A stretch of DNA of 36,391 bases from an uncultured Erythrobacter sp. (lineage in GTDB: Bacteria; Pseudomonadota; Alphaproteobacteria; Sphingomonadales; Sphingomonadaceae), in the NCBI GenBank assembly GCA_938015255.1, contig CALLQC010000184.1, positions 1 to 36,391 on the forward strand. The letters are read 5' to 3'. Position 1 is the first letter of the stretch. Each line of letters starts with the position of its first letter. Below are positions 30,080-36,391 of the stretch, piece after piece. Made by a program: the position numbers and the translations under genes. The notes below the pieces were generated by a model. The model searched no databases and was not told the origin of the DNA. It saw nothing but the letters and a program-made list of their open reading frames with translations.

Positions 30080-30156
30080 GGCGGAGTAGCTCAGGTGGTT
30101 AGAGCAGCGGAATCATAATCCGCGTGTCGGGGGTTCAAGTCCCTCCTCCGCTACCA
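30080..30156 (+). tRNA. tRNA-Met (CAT), elongator type
   Basis: A complete 77-base cloverleaf. The acceptor GGCGGAG pairs with CTCCGCT (one G-U at the end), and A73 and CCA are encoded. The anticodon stem GCGGA/TCCGC encloses loop ATCATAA with CAT. The first pair (G-U) and the lack of the three G-C pairs of initiator tRNA argue for elongator Met; tRNA-Ile2 with a lysidine CAT is less likely but not strictly excluded. Confidence 0.93.
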
Positions 30157-30227: not shown

Positions 30228-30596
30228 CCCGTTTCGAACATTGGTTCAGGCTTGCCTTCGGCTGGGCTTTCGCAAGACGCAGGCAATCCGGCGGACGCAA
30301 ACGCGTTCCAGTTTGAAATTGTCGTGACTGGAGAAACAAGCCGCAACATTGAAAAATCACAGCCAACCGAGCGCTCGCCGGGTGTCATCGGCGATGCGTT
30401 CGTAGGTTATGATATTGGCGACTTACCCGAACTTTCGATTGCCGAAACTATTGAACCGCTTGTGAGGGCGACCTCCGATCGCTTCGAAGGCGGAGCGTCG
30501 AAGCCTTCCGTCTGCGGGCTTGATCTGTTTCTGGGTTCGAAAAGCAGTTCGCTGGCTCAGGTTTACTTGAAGGGCATCGAGCGGGAAACTCACTAA
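30228..30596 (+). pseudogene. TonB-dependent receptor remnant (plug domain only)
   Basis: An open stretch of about 120 codons whose translation matches the start of an outer-membrane TonB-dependent receptor. FEIVVTGETS is the typical TonB-box-like opening. It is followed by GVIGDAFVGYDIGDLPELSIAET, the plug pattern DIGxLPxxxxAE, then SDRFEGGASKPSVCGLDLFLG, matching the GVSxDR...VSVRGLxPFLG segment. The usual RG is CG here, the NGR block is missing, and the frame stops at 30596, so the rest of the plug and the whole 22-strand barrel are absent. A signal peptide is absent too, with TAG 30225 just upstream. It is best read as a decayed gene fragment; a plug-only product is unlikely. Confidence 0.7.
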
Positions 30597-30699: not shown

Positions 30700-30713
30700 T
30701 GACACCGGTTACC
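30700..30713 (+). promoter_or_regulatory. LacI/GalR-family operator-like site before the uronate operon
   Basis: TGACACCGGTTACC has the ACCGGT core and TG/C outer bases of many LacI-family operators (TGxxACCGGTxxCA), with one outer mismatch. It lies 71 bases before the isomerase ATG. TTGTGC at 30687-30692 is a weak -35 candidate overlapping it. No LacI-type regulator gene is in the window. Confidence 0.4.
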
Positions 30714-30784: not shown

Positions 30785-31417
30785 ATGAAAATCGCATTGA
30801 TTACCGAGAACAGCCAGGCGGCGAAGAACGGCATCATCCACGAAGCGTTGACAGCGGTGGCTGAGCCCCTGGGCCACGAAGTGTTCAACTACGGCATGTA
30901 CACTGCTGATGACGCGGCCTCTCTCACTTACAATATGAACGGCCTTTTGACCGGTATTCTGCTTAACTCAAAAGCTGCCGATTTCGTTGTCACTGGATGC
31001 GGAACAGGCATGGGGTCCATGCTTGCGTGCAACGCCATGCCTGGTGTTTTCTGCGGGTTGGTGATCGACCCTACCGATGCATTTCTGTTCAGCCAGATCA
31101 ATGCCGGAAACGCTATTTCTATGCCGTACGCAAAGGGATTCGGTTGGGCCGCAGAATTGAACCTGCAAGATTGCTACCGAAAGATTTTCGAAAATGAACC
31201 TGGCGTTGGCTATCCTAAAGAACGCGCTGCAATCATGGCGGCCAATCGTGATATTCTGAAGGAGCTAAAGGCCGCATCAAGCCATGACATGCTGAGCGTG
31301 CTGAAAAATGTCGATCAGGAATTGCTGAAATCGGCAATCGCAGGTGAGAAATTCGCAGACTATTTCTATCCGAACTCACAAGACGAAGAAATCAGCGCAT
31401 ATTTGCGCGGTCTTTGA
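30785..31417 (+). CDS. RpiB/LacA/LacB-fold uronate isomerase, DhuI-like
   Basis: A 210-residue sugar isomerase of the RpiB/LacAB fold. It opens MKIALITENSQAAKNGIIHE and contains FVVTGCGTGMGSMLACN, the family phosphate/active-site loop with its cysteine. Then come CGLVIDPTDAFLFSQINAGN and YAKGFGWAAELNL. As I recall it, this layout and length fit streptococcal DhuI, which isomerises 4-deoxy-L-threo-5-hexosulose-uronate to 3-deoxy-D-glycero-2,5-hexodiulosonate in place of KduI; RpiB itself is shorter (about 150 residues). Context is decisive: kduD follows after 23 bases, then a lyase and kdgK. ATG 30785 is preferred to an extension from 30659, which runs through the operator. Substrate assignment is inference. 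Confidence 0.8.
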   Translation: MKIALITENSQAAKNGIIHEALTAVAEPLGHEVFNYGMYTADDAASLTYNMNGLLTGILLNSKAADFVVTGCGTGMGSMLACNAMPGVFCGLVIDPTDAFLFSQINAGNAISMPYAKGFGWAAELNLQDCYRKIFENEPGVGYPKERAAIMAANRDILKELKAASSHDMLSVLKNVDQELLKSAIAGEKFADYFYPNSQDEEISAYLRGL

Positions 31418-31440
31418 TCTCCAGGTTGGGCAAGTTTCAG

Positions 31441-32202
31441 ATGACGGCACATCACCCCTTCGATCTCAGCGGGAAAGTGGCCGTTGTCACTGGCGCGAAT
31501 ACCGGCATTGGTCAGGGAATCGCCCTAGCTTTGGCACAAGCTGGCGCGGATATAGCTCTTGTAACCAGAAGCGATGCATCGGAAACTGCGAAATTGGTCG
31601 AGCAGACCGGTTCGAGATCGCTCGTAGTCAGGGCTGATCTGGGAACGATCGAACCGTGCCAGCGGATTGTTGATGAGGTTGTCGCCGGTCTTGGCGGGCT
31701 GGACATACTCGTAAACAATGCAGGCATCATCCGCCGAAATGATGCAACGGAATTCACCGAACAAGATTGGGACGCCGTTGTCGATACCAATCTGAAGGTT
31801 CTGTTTTTCCTGTCGCAGGCTGCTGGCAAGCACATGATCAGTGCTGGCGGTGGCTCAATCATCAACATTGCATCGATGCTAACCTTCCAAGGTGGCATCA
31901 GGGTGGCGAGTTACACGGCGTCAAAAAGCGGTGTTGGTGGCCTTACCAAATTGCTTGCTAATGAATGGGCTGGCAAAAACATTACGGTCAATGCGATCGC
32001 GCCAGGCTACATCGCGACAAACAACACCGCAGCCCTTCAGGCGGATGAAGCGCGGAACAGACAGATCCTGGAGCGAATACCGGCAGGAAGGTGGGGGGAT
32101 CCATCCGACCTTGGCGGTGCAGCGGTGTTCCTTGCATCTGACGCAGCGCGCTATGTCCAGGGGCATATCCTGGCTGTTGACGGCGGCTGGCTCGCGCGCT
32201 GA
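31441..32202 (+). CDS. kduD: 2-dehydro-3-deoxy-D-gluconate 5-dehydrogenase (KduD-like SDR)
   Basis: A 253-residue short-chain dehydrogenase, the length of E. coli KduD. It would reduce 3-deoxy-D-glycero-2,5-hexodiulosonate to 2-keto-3-deoxygluconate using NAD(P)H. The nucleotide motif is TGANTGIG (17-24), NNAG is at 92-95, and the catalytic residues are S145, Y158 and K162 (SYTASKSG). FDLSGKVAVVTG and IIRRNDATEFTEQDWD resemble KduD closely. ATG 31441 is favoured over a TTG at 31414 inside the previous stop. Overlaps the lyase start by one base (TGATG). Pairing with an isomerase gene supports KduD rather than the alginate-type DEH reductase. Confidence 0.85.
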   Translation: MTAHHPFDLSGKVAVVTGANTGIGQGIALALAQAGADIALVTRSDASETAKLVEQTGSRSLVVRADLGTIEPCQRIVDEVVAGLGGLDILVNNAGIIRRNDATEFTEQDWDAVVDTNLKVLFFLSQAAGKHMISAGGGSIINIASMLTFQGGIRVASYTASKSGVGGLTKLLANEWAGKNITVNAIAPGYIATNNTAALQADEARNRQILERIPAGRWGDPSDLGGAAVFLASDAARYVQGHILAVDGGWLAR

Positions 32203-33440
32203 TGTTGGCGATGCCCAAAACAATCAAGAGCGTGCACTCTTTGATGGTTGGCATGGGTATTTTTTTTGTCGGGCTGCCCGGTGCGGCATACGCAGCAACA
32301 ATACCGGATAAGGGCGTGGAGCCTGTATGCCGCGGCGTTGATGGCTACGCGGCAGATTTTGATGGGCGGCGCACATTTTTATGGAGGCCGCAATGGCTGG
32401 ATGCGATAAAGGCCAGTTCCGAACACAGCGCCGGGTTTGTTTCGGACGCTGAACAGGCGCTCAGACGGGGGCCTTACACAGTCACTGATAAGCCGGCACC
32501 GGTACACGGTGCATCACTGAATGACTATGCGTCTATCGGCCCATATTGGTGGCCGGACCCATCCAAAGCGAACGGTCTCCCTTATGTTCGCCGTGATGGG
32601 GAAGTTAATCCGGCTCGCAATGGTCTGCAATTTGACAAGAACCGTCTTCGCGCTTTGGGGGACGATCTGGAGGCACTGTCGGTTGCATACTTCATCACAT
32701 CTGATCACCGATTTGCGGATCATGCGGCTGGGTTGGTTCGGGTTTGGTTTCTCGATCCGGCAACCCGAATGAACCCTCACATGAATTTTGCCCAGGGGAT
32801 CCCCGGCAAGGTTAAAGGGCGCGGAGAGGGGATTATCGAGGCTTCGGACCTTTCAACCGTCATTGAGAGTATCGGATTGATCGCACCCGCGAATGCTCTG
32901 ACGAGCGGCGAGCTAGATATGCTGAGGGCGTGGTACGCAGAATTCGCCAGCTGGTTGGCAACCAGTGAACTTGGCGGTGATGAGATGCGAAAGCACAACA
33001 ATCATGGTGTATTTTTCGACTTCTATCTCGCCCATTTTGCGATCTTCGCCGGCCTTGAAGGAACTACGAAAAGCCTGGCCGAGAATTTTCTGGAATCTCG
33101 AATAGGCGTGCAAATGGATCAACAGGGACGGTTCTCCGAAGAATTGAAGCGGACGCGCAGTTGGCACTATTCAAATTATCTCGTCAGCGGAGCGGCGCGA
33201 TTGGCGACAATCGGTGAGTGCGTTGACGTCGATTTGTGGAACTCGCAGTTGGAGGACGGGCGAAGCCTATCGACTGCACGTCAATTCTTGCTGCGGTATT
33301 CGACTCGCCTTGAGGAATGGCCTTTTCCAGATCGCGACAAAGACGCTGGTTCATTCTCGAAAATGCAGAACATTTTCGATCGCACCGACTTTATGTTCCG
33401 CGCGCCGGGGCATCAGCCGGACAGCATCACACTTCCATAA
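32202..33440 (+). CDS. Secreted polyuronate lyase, PF05426 family (PL38-like)
   Basis: A 412-residue exported lyase (409 if started at ATG 32211). The signal peptide ends AAYA|A near residue 31. The body is an alpha/alpha-toroid type 'alginate lyase' (PF05426). The family block [20 protein letters not shown] is at 112-131, and the catalytic-region N266-N267-H268 sits in [20 protein letters not shown] follows, with Y323 as likely acid/base. YWWPDP and the following DGEVNP are features I associate with PL38 (glucuronan/cellouronate and some alginate lyases) more than PL5. It would cleave a polyuronate by beta-elimination in the periplasm to 4,5-unsaturated ends. The exact substrate is not readable from sequence; the gene neighbours argue against alginate. 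Confidence 0.8.
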
Positions 33441-33463
33441 CCTCGAAGACGGAGCATATTACA

Positions 33464-34495
33464 ATGGCAGACTTCCTATCCTTTGGTGAAATTATGCTTC
33501 GGCTCAAAACACCGGCGCATCAGCGTTTTTTCCAGTCACCCGAATTTGAGGCGACATTTGGAGGAGGCGAGGCCAATGTAGCCGTCGCTCTTAGCAATTA
33601 TGGGCTTGATGCTGGTTTCGTTAGCGCGCTGCCGGACAATGATATCGGTGACAATGCGATTATGGAGCTGCGCAAATTCGGCGTGGACACCGCGCATATC
33701 AGTCGCTCAGGCGACCGGGTCGGCATATATTTCCTGGAAACAGGGTCCAACCAACGGCCATCGAAAGTGGTTTATGACCGGTCAAACTCATCTATCTGCA
33801 ATGCCAGCGCAGCCGAGTTCGATTGGCGCGCCATTTTCGAAGGTGCGAAGTGGTTGCACATTACCGGCATCACACCAGCGCTCAGTCAATCGGCCGCTGA
33901 TCTCTCTATGGCCTGCGTAGAGGCCGCGAAGCAGGCTGGCGTCACTGTTTCGTGCGACTTCAACTTTCGCGGTAAATTGTGGAAGTATGGCAAGAGCGCG
34001 CCAGAGGTGATGCGCGAGCTGGTCAAATATGTCGACGTTGGCATTGCCAATGAGGAAGACTGTCAGAAATCCTTGGATATTTCGGTGGACGTTGACGTGG
34101 AGAGCGGAGAGCTGGACACTGCCAAATACGAAGCGCTCGGCCAGAAAGTCCTCGATATCTATCCCAATATGCACACGATCGCGATTACACTGCGTGAAAG
34201 CCTGAGCGCGGACCGCAATAACTGGTCTGCCTGCCTGCGCACCCGCGATGACGGCTTTATGCTGTCGAAGAAATACGAGCTGACTGATATTGTTGACCGT
34301 GTCGGGGGCGGGGACAGTTTTGCCTCGGCGCTGATATACGGCCTGAATGCTTATGAAGACCGCCAGCAAAGCCTGGAATTCGCAGTTGCTGCCAGCGCGT
34401 TAAAACACACGATTATGGGCGATTTCAACCGCGTGACTGTGTCCGAGGTTGAGAAGTTGATGAGTGGCGACGGATCGGGCCGCGTGCAGCGCTGA
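33464..34495 (+). CDS. kdgK: 2-dehydro-3-deoxygluconokinase
   Basis: A 343-residue PfkB-family sugar kinase that phosphorylates 2-keto-3-deoxygluconate to KDPG, feeding the lower Entner-Doudoroff pathway. [14 protein letters not shown] (31-44) is the KdgK substrate loop, and [13 protein letters not shown] (278-290) holds the catalytic base D284 and anion hole. GGAG (33451-33454) sits nine bases before ATG 33464; a frame extending upstream to 33317 overlaps the lyase and was rejected. It is the last gene of the four-gene catabolic unit, starting 23 bases after the lyase. The KDPG aldolase gene (eda) is not in the window. Confidence 0.93.
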
Positions 34496-34587
34496 ACGGG
34501 AAGGCAACACGGATCCCGATCGCCTGAATTTCAGTTTTGTGCGCGCGCCAGCGCACACACTTCGAATTTGATCGAACCGAATCGATA

Positions 34588-34605
34588 TTGATCAGTTTCG
34601 ATCAA
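34588..34605. promoter_or_regulatory. Palindromic operator candidate upstream of the dehydrogenase unit
   Basis: TTGATC-N6-GATCAA, a perfect 6-bp inverted repeat, lies in the 162-base gap between kdgK and the next gene, 52 bases before its ATG. A related half-site, TTGATCGAA, is at 34568-34576. The clustering of GATC-containing repeats in an AT-rich gap suggests a regulator site and hence a separate promoter for the next two genes. Confidence 0.4.
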
Positions 34606-34657
34606 TTCAGTAGGTTAATCACATGTGTTTCCAGCCGACCGGACAATTTACAAACTG

Positions 34658-35254
34658 ATGAATTTTCAAGCAACGCGGCGCTCGTTTCTGAGAGTTTGCG
34701 GGGTCGGCAGCATCCCGTTCGGACTGGCCGCGTGCGCGCCGGGCGAGGTCGTCTGCGAGGTTGGAAATTGGGCTCTGCCAGTAAAGCCTGCAGGCGTGTT
34801 CTTCGATTGCTTGCAGATGAGCGTCATGTCGGATGCTGCGAATTTGATCGTGGGCGATGGTGATTGGCCGACTGCTGATGATGCTCACGTGGTGACATAT
34901 CTTGATCAGATTTTCGGGGAATGGGCCGGGCCGGACTTGAAGGTGCGAATGTCCAGATTAGCAGAGCATTTGGGCAATTTTGCCGTCCAGCAACAAGGGC
35001 GCGCTTATGTGCAGCTTAATCAGGAACAGCGTTTGCAAACGCTCCGGCAATATGATGCTGCGGCGTTTGCGGATCGCAAGGATGAAGCCAATGCGACATA
35101 TATAGAATTCAAAACTCTGGTATTGAAAATCTATAACACCAGCGCCGAGGCCAACCGTGACTTCGTGCTCGTGCCGGGTGAGTATATAGGCAACCTGTCG
35201 GCAAGCGAGCATTTGGAATTGGTACGCGCCAAAGCACTGGAATTTGCCGGATGA
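34658..35254 (+). CDS. Gluconate 2-dehydrogenase subunit 3-family protein, Tat lipoprotein
   Basis: A 198-residue small subunit of a membrane-bound flavin dehydrogenase. The N-terminus has a Tat motif (TRRSFLRVCG) and a hydrophobic stretch ending in LAAC, a lipobox, so it is probably Tat-exported and lipidated. The mature part (MSVMSDAANLIVGDGDWPTADDAHVV and the following YLDQIF, quoted for location only) has the family's helical opening. It probably escorts the signal-less GMC subunit across the membrane, as in gluconate/sorbitol/glucoside-3 dehydrogenases. ATG 34658 was chosen because it precedes the Tat motif directly. Its stop overlaps the GMC start (ATGA). Confidence 0.8.
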   Translation: MNFQATRRSFLRVCGVGSIPFGLAACAPGEVVCEVGNWALPVKPAGVFFDCLQMSVMSDAANLIVGDGDWPTADDAHVVTYLDQIFGEWAGPDLKVRMSRLAEHLGNFAVQQQGRAYVQLNQEQRLQTLRQYDAAAFADRKDEANATYIEFKTLVLKIYNTSAEANRDFVLVPGEYIGNLSASEHLELVRAKALEFAG

Positions 35255-36391
35255 GCGCTCAGGCAGATGCAGATTTCGACGCGATTGTTGTCGGCTCAGG
35301 TATCACTGGCGGATGGGTTGCAAAGGAATTGTGTGAGCGGGGTCTTAAAGTTCTCGTTCTTGAACGCGGCCGCAATCTCGATCATCCCAGCGCCGAATAC
35401 ACCGATTTTGAGGCCCCGTGGGAGCTGGAATATCGCGGCATGGTCCCCGATTATCTCGCGGAGAATGACCGGTATGAAATGCTGCGGCGAAAACGGCATA
35501 TCTATCGCAACGAACATCGCCAGTTCTTTGTCGACGATGCTGAGCATCCTTATAGCTTTCCCGAAGATCGCCCGTTCATGTGGACGCGCGGATATCAGCT
35601 TGGCGGGCGCTCGCTGACATGGGCGCGCCAGTGCTACCGCTGGAGTCAAAAGGACTTCGACGCCAATCGCAAGGATGGTCACGGCTCCCCTTGGCCCATC
35701 GGCTATGACGACCTTGCCCCCTGGTATTCCAAGGTCGAGGCGTTTGCTGGCATTTCGGGCAATGTCGATGGCATTGATAGTCTGCCCGATGGCGAATTTC
35801 TGAAACCATGGGGCATGAGCGCAGCGGAAGACCAGATCGCGGCGAACCTGCGCAAAGAGCGACCCGATCGGCCCATGATTATCGGGCGCTGCGCCAATCT
35901 TACCGAAAATCACGAACCATCAAATGCTTTGGGACGCGGTGTTTGCCAAGCGCGCAGTCGCTGCTCCAGCGGGTGCGCATACGGAGCCTATTTTTCGTCG
36001 CTATCCGCCACGCTTCCTGCGGCACGTCTCACAGGAAATCTCACCGTTGTAACGGATTCGACAGTTGAATCGGTAGTCTATGATGCGAAGCAGCGCAAAG
36101 TGACAGGCGTGCGCGCTATCCGGTCGGCTGATGGCTCGCGGGAGAAATATTCGGGTAAAATCGTTTTCCTAAATGCCGGATCACTCAATTCTGTTCACCT
36201 TTTGATGAATTCGCAAGGGGCGCAGCATCCCAGTGGCCTCGCCAACAGCAGCGGGATGCTTGGCGCATATATCATGGATCACTTTGGCGGATCAGGCGCT
36301 TCGGGTGATGTGCCCGGCCTTGATGATCGTTATGCGTTCGGGCGTAGGCCAGTGGGCATTTACGTGCCCAATTACCGGCATGAGCAGTTAG
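35251..36391 (+). CDS. GMC-family FAD oxidoreductase, 5' part
   Basis: The first 380 residues of a glucose-methanol-choline-type flavoprotein; the gene runs out of the window with no stop. The FAD motif is VVGSGITGGWVAKEL (13-27), followed by VLVLERGR. GGRSLTWARQCYRW and WPIGYDDLAPWYSKVE are characteristic of the gluconate/sugar dehydrogenase branch. A Cys-rich segment RCSSGCAYGAY is also seen in that branch. There is no signal peptide, fitting export together with the Tat-tagged subunit just upstream, whose stop it overlaps (ATGA). The substrate could be a sugar, sugar acid or glycoside (for instance 3-keto-glycoside formation). A cytochrome c subunit may follow beyond the window. Confidence 0.88.
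   Translation, partial: MSAQADADFDAIVVGSGITGGWVAKELCERGLKVLVLERGRNLDHPSAEYTDFEAPWELEYRGMVPDYLAENDRYEMLRRKRHIYRNEHRQFFVDDAEHPYSFPEDRPFMWTRGYQLGGRSLTWARQCYRWSQKDFDANRKDGHGSPWPIGYDDLAPWYSKVEAFAGISGNVDGIDSLPDGEFLKPWGMSAAEDQIAANLRKERPDRPMIIGRCANLTENHEPSNALGRGVCQARSRCSSGCAYGAYFSSLSATLPAARLTGNLTVVTDSTVESVVYDAKQRKVTGVRAIRSADGSREKYSGKIVFLNAGSLNSVHLLMNSQGAQHPSGLANSSGMLGAYIMDHFGGSGASGDVPGLDDRYAFGRRPVGIYVPNYRHEQL

Follow-up and report, generated by a model that had tools for sequence, protein, structure and literature searches.

A PL38-type lyase beside DhuI and KduD in an uncultured Erythrobacter: a probable operon for a polymer yielding L-threo uronates

Lyases of family PL38 are often annotated as 'alginate lyase', yet the family splits among alginate, glucuronan and glycosaminoglycan (GAG) activities. 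Which polymer, then, is served by such a lyase when it stands among genes for uronate metabolism? The question is raised by a 36,391-nucleotide stretch, hereafter the window, of contig CALLQC010000184.1 from the draft genome of an uncultured Erythrobacter sp. (GCA_938015255.1; 2.88 Mb, 185 contigs, 94% complete). Four open genes follow one another there on the + strand:

30785..31417, +, dhuI, DhuI-type isomerase (PRK09273 profile; identity to gbs1892 and 3c5y)
31441..32202, +, kduD, 2-dehydro-3-deoxy-D-gluconate 5-dehydrogenase (TIGR01832)
32202..33440, +, PL38-type polysaccharide lyase, probably exported, probably active on glucuronan or another polyglucuronate (PF05426, PL38 likeness, BoPL38 residues)
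33464..34495, +, kdgK, 2-keto-3-deoxygluconate (KDG) kinase of the PfkB family (PfkB, kinase half of NF041633)

The reading that we favour, with some confidence but well short of certainty, is a catabolic operon for a D-glucuronate (GlcA) polymer, most likely glucuronan (beta-1,4-polyglucuronate). The exported lyase would cut the chain by beta-elimination, and the unsaturated monouronates would enter the cell via a tripartite ATP-independent periplasmic (TRAP) transporter encoded elsewhere in the genome. DhuI would isomerise them to 3-deoxy-D-glycero-2,5-hexodiulosonate (DK-II), which KduD would reduce to KDG. KdgK would phosphorylate KDG, and the 2-keto-3-deoxy-6-phosphogluconate (KDPG) aldolase, for which there is a gene on contig C17, would then split the product.

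The original prediction, made from the letters of the window alone, had proposed this gene order with spacings of 23, -1 and 23 bases, and the coordinates bear it out (31418-31440, a TGATG overlap at 32202, and 33441-33463). It had also called the first gene a DhuI-type isomerase. This protein scores 317 bits against the NCBIfam model PRK09273 (cut-off 137) and also matches Pfam DUF3666 and LacAB_rpiB, while the RpiB and LacB models reach only 28 and 31 bits. Its homology to a tested DhuI is full-length: 123 of 209 residues (59%) are identical to gbs1892, the DhuI of Streptococcus agalactiae (PMC6837340), as are 166 of 210 to 3c5y. Placed among RpiB, LacB and DhuI, it falls with DhuI. The reductase is, as predicted, a true KduD, passing the equivalog cut-off of TIGR01832 (386 vs 339 bits). 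The fourth gene encodes a PfkB-type kinase whose best match is to the kinase half of NF041633 (486 bits, below the cut-off of 700 for that fusion model); from this match and from the setting we read it as a KDG kinase.

The lyase matches PF05426 at 222 bits (cut-off 22), and its likeness to PL38, another element of the prediction, held up in several comparisons. Against BoPL38 (8bdq) it gives E-values of 2e-92 by profile and 1.5e-49 by phmmer, and profile comparison sets 3nfv (E 8e-115) far ahead of the best PL5 entry (E 3e-10), although identity to BoPL38, 3NFV and 3NNB over the structural alignment is 27-28%. The BoPL38 positions Y91, D108, Q173, N242, H243, R292, H297 and Y298, which include the catalytic His243 and Tyr298, are all identical in the window lyase and throughout its 15-member clade; Y91, D108, Q173, N242, H297 and Y298 were taken from the titles of BoPL38 mutant structures, whereas R292 was our choice from the alignment. 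By sequence, fold and active site, then, the protein belongs with PL38 and not with PL5. Its N-terminus looks, by eye, like a signal peptide. In a tree of 57 rows the nearest named rows are Erythrobacteraceae, and the dhuI-linked lyases fall in one 15-row set (support 100/100). A class-wide search matched five of 386 genomes, namely the window's own, one with a fragment (G019), one at 34% identity and two weakly. The characterised members of PL38 comprise two alginate lyases, two glucuronan lyases, among them CUL-I from the alphaproteobacterium Brevundimonas, and one lyase, RiPL38, acting on hyaluronan (HA) and weakly on chondroitin sulfate (CS) (PMC13027841).

By sugar stereochemistry, GlcA polymers in general give an L-threo product. 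An alginate catabolic operon has a reductase for 4-deoxy-L-erythro-5-hexoseulose uronate (DEH) and no isomerase for 4-deoxy-L-threo-5-hexosulose uronate (DHU); the window operon has DhuI and a true KduD instead. The L-threo product released from GAGs and pectin is a substrate of both KduI and DhuI (PMC12838403), while alginate yields L-erythro DEH (PMC11381880, PMC8286568), and this difference is the strongest argument against alginate. Within its available text, a review of alginate metabolism mentions KduI and isomerase zero times each (PMC8286568). That the operon is nevertheless one for alginate strikes us as improbable. BoPL38 and Aly38A, of the same family, are alginate lyases, and BoPL38 shares its catalytic residues with the window lyase. 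However, 12 genomes retain the lyase together with a DHU isomerase and KduD, the window's genome holds no second PF05426 protein, and a search of it for PL7 gave no match (the control of that search was silent as well). BoPL38, for all its agreement with our lyase in fold, active-site residues and profile match, sits in an alginate polysaccharide utilisation locus (PUL) with PL6, PL17 and KdgF (PMC11381880). The pathway therefore most likely handles L-threo products, of the GlcA or galacturonate type, as the prediction had held, and conservation among relatives, both of the gene set and of a site before dhuI, agrees.

The gene set was followed through the 52 loci at which the GTDB genome collection yielded the lyase; L056 and L057, which are the same records as G027 and G020, were dropped before counting, and the near copies L059 and L060 were both retained. 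dhuI and kduD stand in one gene run with the lyase in 11 of these loci, giving 12 genomes with the window, and all 12 lyases lie inside the 15-row clade, with no dhuI-linked row outside it. The same four genes in exactly this order, their kdgK being 94-95% identical, recur in L055, L056 and L057, while L059, L060, L063 and L065 have a distant kdgK (34-36%) between kduD and the lyase. This type of kdgK is not universal, other loci carrying a 32-37% kinase instead. The clade's other three rows are L061, where dhuI is absent from the flank covered, L041 (genome G044) and L043 (genome G056). Outside the clade, in L068, L078 and L100, a PL38 relative has near it a member of the KduI family and a reductase resembling KduD (71%, 63% and 43% identical to the window KduD, respectively). 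L078 runs TonB-dependent receptor (TBDR), PL38, c4 (a protein cluster described below), LacI, KduI, KduD, which indicates that loci of this kind can operate with one isomerase or the other. The isomerase next door offers a sorting rule for PL38 genes, DhuI or KduI together with KduD pointing to an L-threo product.

A second line of evidence is a short site upstream of dhuI:

30700..30713, +, conserved site TGACACCGGTTACC, probable LacI-family operator, starting 85 bp before dhuI

It was spotted by eye when the upstream regions were aligned, in the output of a palindrome search, and the counts were made afterwards, so that it is a post hoc choice. At up to two mismatches it occurs once in the window (shuffle mean 0.07). 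The draft genome contains exactly three exact copies, each at uronate genes: one before dhuI of the window operon; one on contig C132, flanked by a LacI gene and the dctP of a TRAP transporter; and one on contig C174, before a second kduD (kduD2), a second KDG-kinase-like gene and a TBDR gene. Of 25 distinct dhuI genomes, 23 have the site, with at most one mismatch, no more than 100 bp from dhuI. Among the 120 genomes of the relatives search, the exact site is found in 13 of 16 with a full-length dhuI and in 5 of 104 without (Fisher p 5e-11, uncorrected for kinship), and exact sites in the relatives' genomes number 37, compared with 5 when the pattern is reversed. The palindrome search before dhuI found nothing shared, and promoter and terminator scans returned no more than shuffles did. 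From its position, we infer that the LacI protein of C132 binds the site; encoded beside the TRAP genes, this regulator probably controls all three loci through it. The 14-bp site makes scattered genes one testable regulon, and it points to an uncharacterised hydratase-fold protein (c4). Two further occurrences may be recorded. A one-mismatch copy (TGACACCGATTACC) lies at G000:C161:22782-22795, the reversed pattern also having one such match. On G056:C2 only 89 bases separate the start of the PL38 gene from one end of the contig, and an exact operator stops 30 bases short of the opposite end; were the contig circular, the operator would stand directly before the lyase.

The rest of the host genome complicates the picture. 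The prediction that an RpiB-fold isomerase replaces KduI fails at this level, as C132 encodes a full KduI (369 bits, equivalog cut-off 250) and C174 the second KduD (392 vs 339 bits); the replacement may hold at the locus but not genome-wide. C174 also holds a GH88 gene, an L-rhamnose isomerase-like gene (just under its cut-off) and a rhamnulose aldolase fusion (above it), and C132 a sulfatase-like gene and a BNR_4 protein, a possible sign of an ulvan lyase. The lyase might act on a GlcA heteropolymer (ulvan or GAG-like), the operon being a satellite of the host's ulvan genes, and we regard this as a possible but rather unlikely account. In its favour, these same two contigs carry the other two exact operator sites, sulfatases, GH88 and BNR_4 proteins occur beside the mostly flavobacterial PL38 relatives (counts below), and RiPL38 shows that the family reaches GAGs. 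Heteropolymer products would, however, need enzymes such as GH88, a sulfatase or a rhamnose enzyme, none of which the window operon encodes. A search with the host GH88, moreover, gave nothing at 1e-12 in the flanks covered at the 11 dhuI-PL38 loci (a threshold that distant GH88 or GH105 could escape), and the dhuI-linked lyases form a clade of their own, apart from the flavobacterial ones. Glucuronan is by comparison the most economical substrate, a homopolymer needing neither GH88 nor sulfatase. It is favoured also by the lack of a GH88 match in those loci at the threshold used and by a tested alphaproteobacterial PL38 being a glucuronan lyase. Glucuronan specificity of the window lyase is plausible. 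Since glucuronan is reported to be a significant carbohydrate of green algae (PMC4765187) and Erythrobacter to be among the dominant genera on seaweeds (PMC10233909), the operon may represent a common carbon route.

Several observations nevertheless weigh against a glucuronan operon. Firstly, the lyase tree includes no characterised glucuronan lyase, and active-site residues common to BoPL38, an alginate lyase, do not tell GlcA from mannuronate. Secondly, the ulvan-type genes of C132 and C174 mean that the lyase could serve the host's own ulvan-type system. Thirdly, neither linkage nor site is absolute: lyase and dhuI are 60 kb apart in L041; the genome of L043 has the lyase and no full-length dhuI; two dhuI genomes (L050 and L053) are without the site; and five genomes carry the exact site without dhuI, one of them (G056) having a PL38 gene. 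Finally, the 81 neighbour proteins of the mostly flavobacterial PL38 relatives include 14 sulfatases, 4 GH88, rhamnosidases, 2 BNR_4 and two Chondroitinas_B. The last family (PL6) includes alginate lyases, as BePL6 shows (PMC11381880). Among the 61 neighbour proteins of alphaproteobacterial PL38 relatives outside the dhuI set there are 3 GH88, 3 LacI and 2 KduI. Both tallies cover the 25 most frequent families of each set. The first set comprises 65 of 71 open reading frames (ORFs) from ten flavobacterial loci, with 7 of 7 from L100, 3 of 7 from L087 and 6 of 8 from L096; the second comprises 54 of 69 ORFs from nine alphaproteobacterial loci and 7 from L078, the near copy L072 being left out.

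Pectin-type polygalacturonate, which is also an L-threo DHU source, is a doubtful candidate for the lyase's substrate. In other genomes of the genus (L044-L048, L051 and L052), dhuI-kduD-kdgK adjoins a pectate-lyase-like protein (cluster c5), a carboxylesterase and, in some, a cupin, and the c5 member of L047 resembles pectate lyase 9buj (E 3e-14). Yet c5 is unmatched in all 52 PL38 loci, and in the available text of PMC13027841 none of the five characterised PL38 enzymes is reported as a pectin lyase. These loci probably represent the same chemistry applied to a different polymer, an arrangement consistent with PL38 having joined a general L-threo module by recruitment.

Upstream of the operator, the window retains a further sign of its history:

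30252..30596, +, TBDR remnant, plug end only (91-96 residues align with receptors 936-989 aa long)

The fragment aligns at 59% identity with the L054 receptor (residues 80-170) and at 52% with that of L040 (residues 27-118); Pfam assigned it no family at 0.001. L040 and L057 share the order TBDR, c4, DctP, DctM, LacI, dhuI, kduD, PL38, kdgK, whereas the window keeps the first part of the TBDR gene and then passes to the operator and dhuI. It looks like a shortened form of that layout, and the remnant suggests a shortened PUL; a single deletion that began inside the receptor gene and stopped just short of the operator would yield the present arrangement.

Such losses raise the prospect that the operon is decaying, its receptor, transporter and regulator gone from the locus and the remainder perhaps unused, which we consider unlikely. 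Beside the receptor remnant, genome G019 keeps dhuI, kduD and kdgK, with only a lyase remnant (L038, 11626-11994) between intact kduD and kdgK, so that there the lyase disappeared ahead of the other module genes. In the window, however, all four genes are intact, the operator is exact, and a transporter and a LacI gene are present in trans. Against G019, the proteins of dhuI, kduD and kdgK are 88-95% identical while their four-fold degenerate sites agree at only 26-42%, which indicates strong constraint. The lyase is less constrained, at 53-68% protein identity to relatives against 23-38% at four-fold sites. For kdgK, four distinct relatives (L038, L039, L040 and L055) give 94-95% amino acid identity and 36-42% at four-fold sites. 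Horizontal transfer of kdgK, considered in view of this identity beside about 60% for the lyase, was rejected: across all the loci compared, four-fold sites agree at 22-45% for all four genes, far diverged throughout, and KdgK is merely a slow protein.

How much of this is new? The prediction knew of no described sphingomonad system with this set, and that stands in part. Nishimura et al. (mSphere 2025, PMC12838403) have already described the dhuI-kduD pair, under the name type G, from nine strains of Sphingomonadaceae and four of Erythrobacteraceae, and the window pair agrees with it in isomerase and reductase types, in gene order, with dhuI directly before kduD on the same strand, and in taxonomic range. 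The available text of that article, by contrast, ties no PL38 lyase, operator or regulon to type G, and no paper joining PL38 to type G was found by title or abstract, most of the subscription literature lying outside the search. The lyase of strain SH203, likewise an alphaproteobacterium, is PL38 by report (PMC13027841), and the genome of that strain has one PF05426 protein; its genome paper describes no isomerase cluster. In the pathway of the streptococcal GAG cluster (gbs1891/gbs1892), DhuI is likewise followed by a reductase, KdgK and KdgA; its reductase is DhuD and it includes UGL and a phosphotransferase system (PTS) (PMC6837340), whereas the window operon has KduD and neither UGL nor PTS. 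The component enzymes are of known kinds, their combination has so far been met within this bacterial group, and the new parts are the gene combination, the regulon and the cut-down locus.

Two protein clusters recur around these genes. Members of c4 (about 265 aa) occur at G000:C174:18112-18921 (L112) and in L039, L040, L044-L054, L064, L068 and L078, travelling with dhuI or KduI plus kduD. They have no Pfam match (L039 member, 1e-5) and no NCBIfam match (L112 member), but are homologues of 4-oxalocrotonate decarboxylase/MhpD by profile (6e-15) and fold, and are candidates for an unsaturated-uronate enzyme. It is conceivable, though we would give it rather poor odds, that a LacI-controlled glucuronan regulon of marine sphingomonads joins DhuI, KduD, the PL38 clade and c4, the last perhaps a new ring-opening or hydrating enzyme doing the job of KdgF. 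A possible KdgF, a cupin recognised only by Pfam Cupin_2, co-occurs with c4 in L047, L048, L051 and L052, which speaks against c4 as a simple KdgF replacement. The proteins of cluster c10, about 570 aa long and weakly matching the Pect-lyase and BT_3328 families, are encoded in the PL38 loci L056, L067, L068 and L078 and at G000:C174:16250-17941. This cluster directly follows the lyase in L067 and L068, adjoins c4 in the window's own genome, and is a candidate second lyase; a phmmer search gave only a spurious ubiquitin match.

Elsewhere in the genome, two Hepar_II_III proteins were found, one on C3 and one on C132. The latter (G000:C132:14399-16393, 664 aa) follows the LacI gene near the operator, is distantly like PL35/PL39, and may be an oligo-uronide lyase belonging to the same regulon. 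C127 ends in a second GH88 fragment (C127:34606-34932), which contains a stop. A tRNA-linked island was considered for the window locus, given a tRNA-Met at 30080-30156, and rejected: the loci of eight relatives contain no tRNA-Met, and their other tRNAs (a tRNA-Pro about 0.4 kb beyond kdgK in L040, distant ones in L038 and L043) form no consistent link. The GMC oxidoreductase and Gluconate_2-dh3 genes downstream (34652-36390; the window ends inside the GMC gene) are not counted as members of the system, since tblastn at 1e-8 matched them in none of the 29 loci L038-L066. Between kdgK and this pair, at 34568-34605, lies an inverted repeat, TTGATCGAA...TTCGATCAA, with 9-base arms 20 apart, a possible operator for the two downstream genes.

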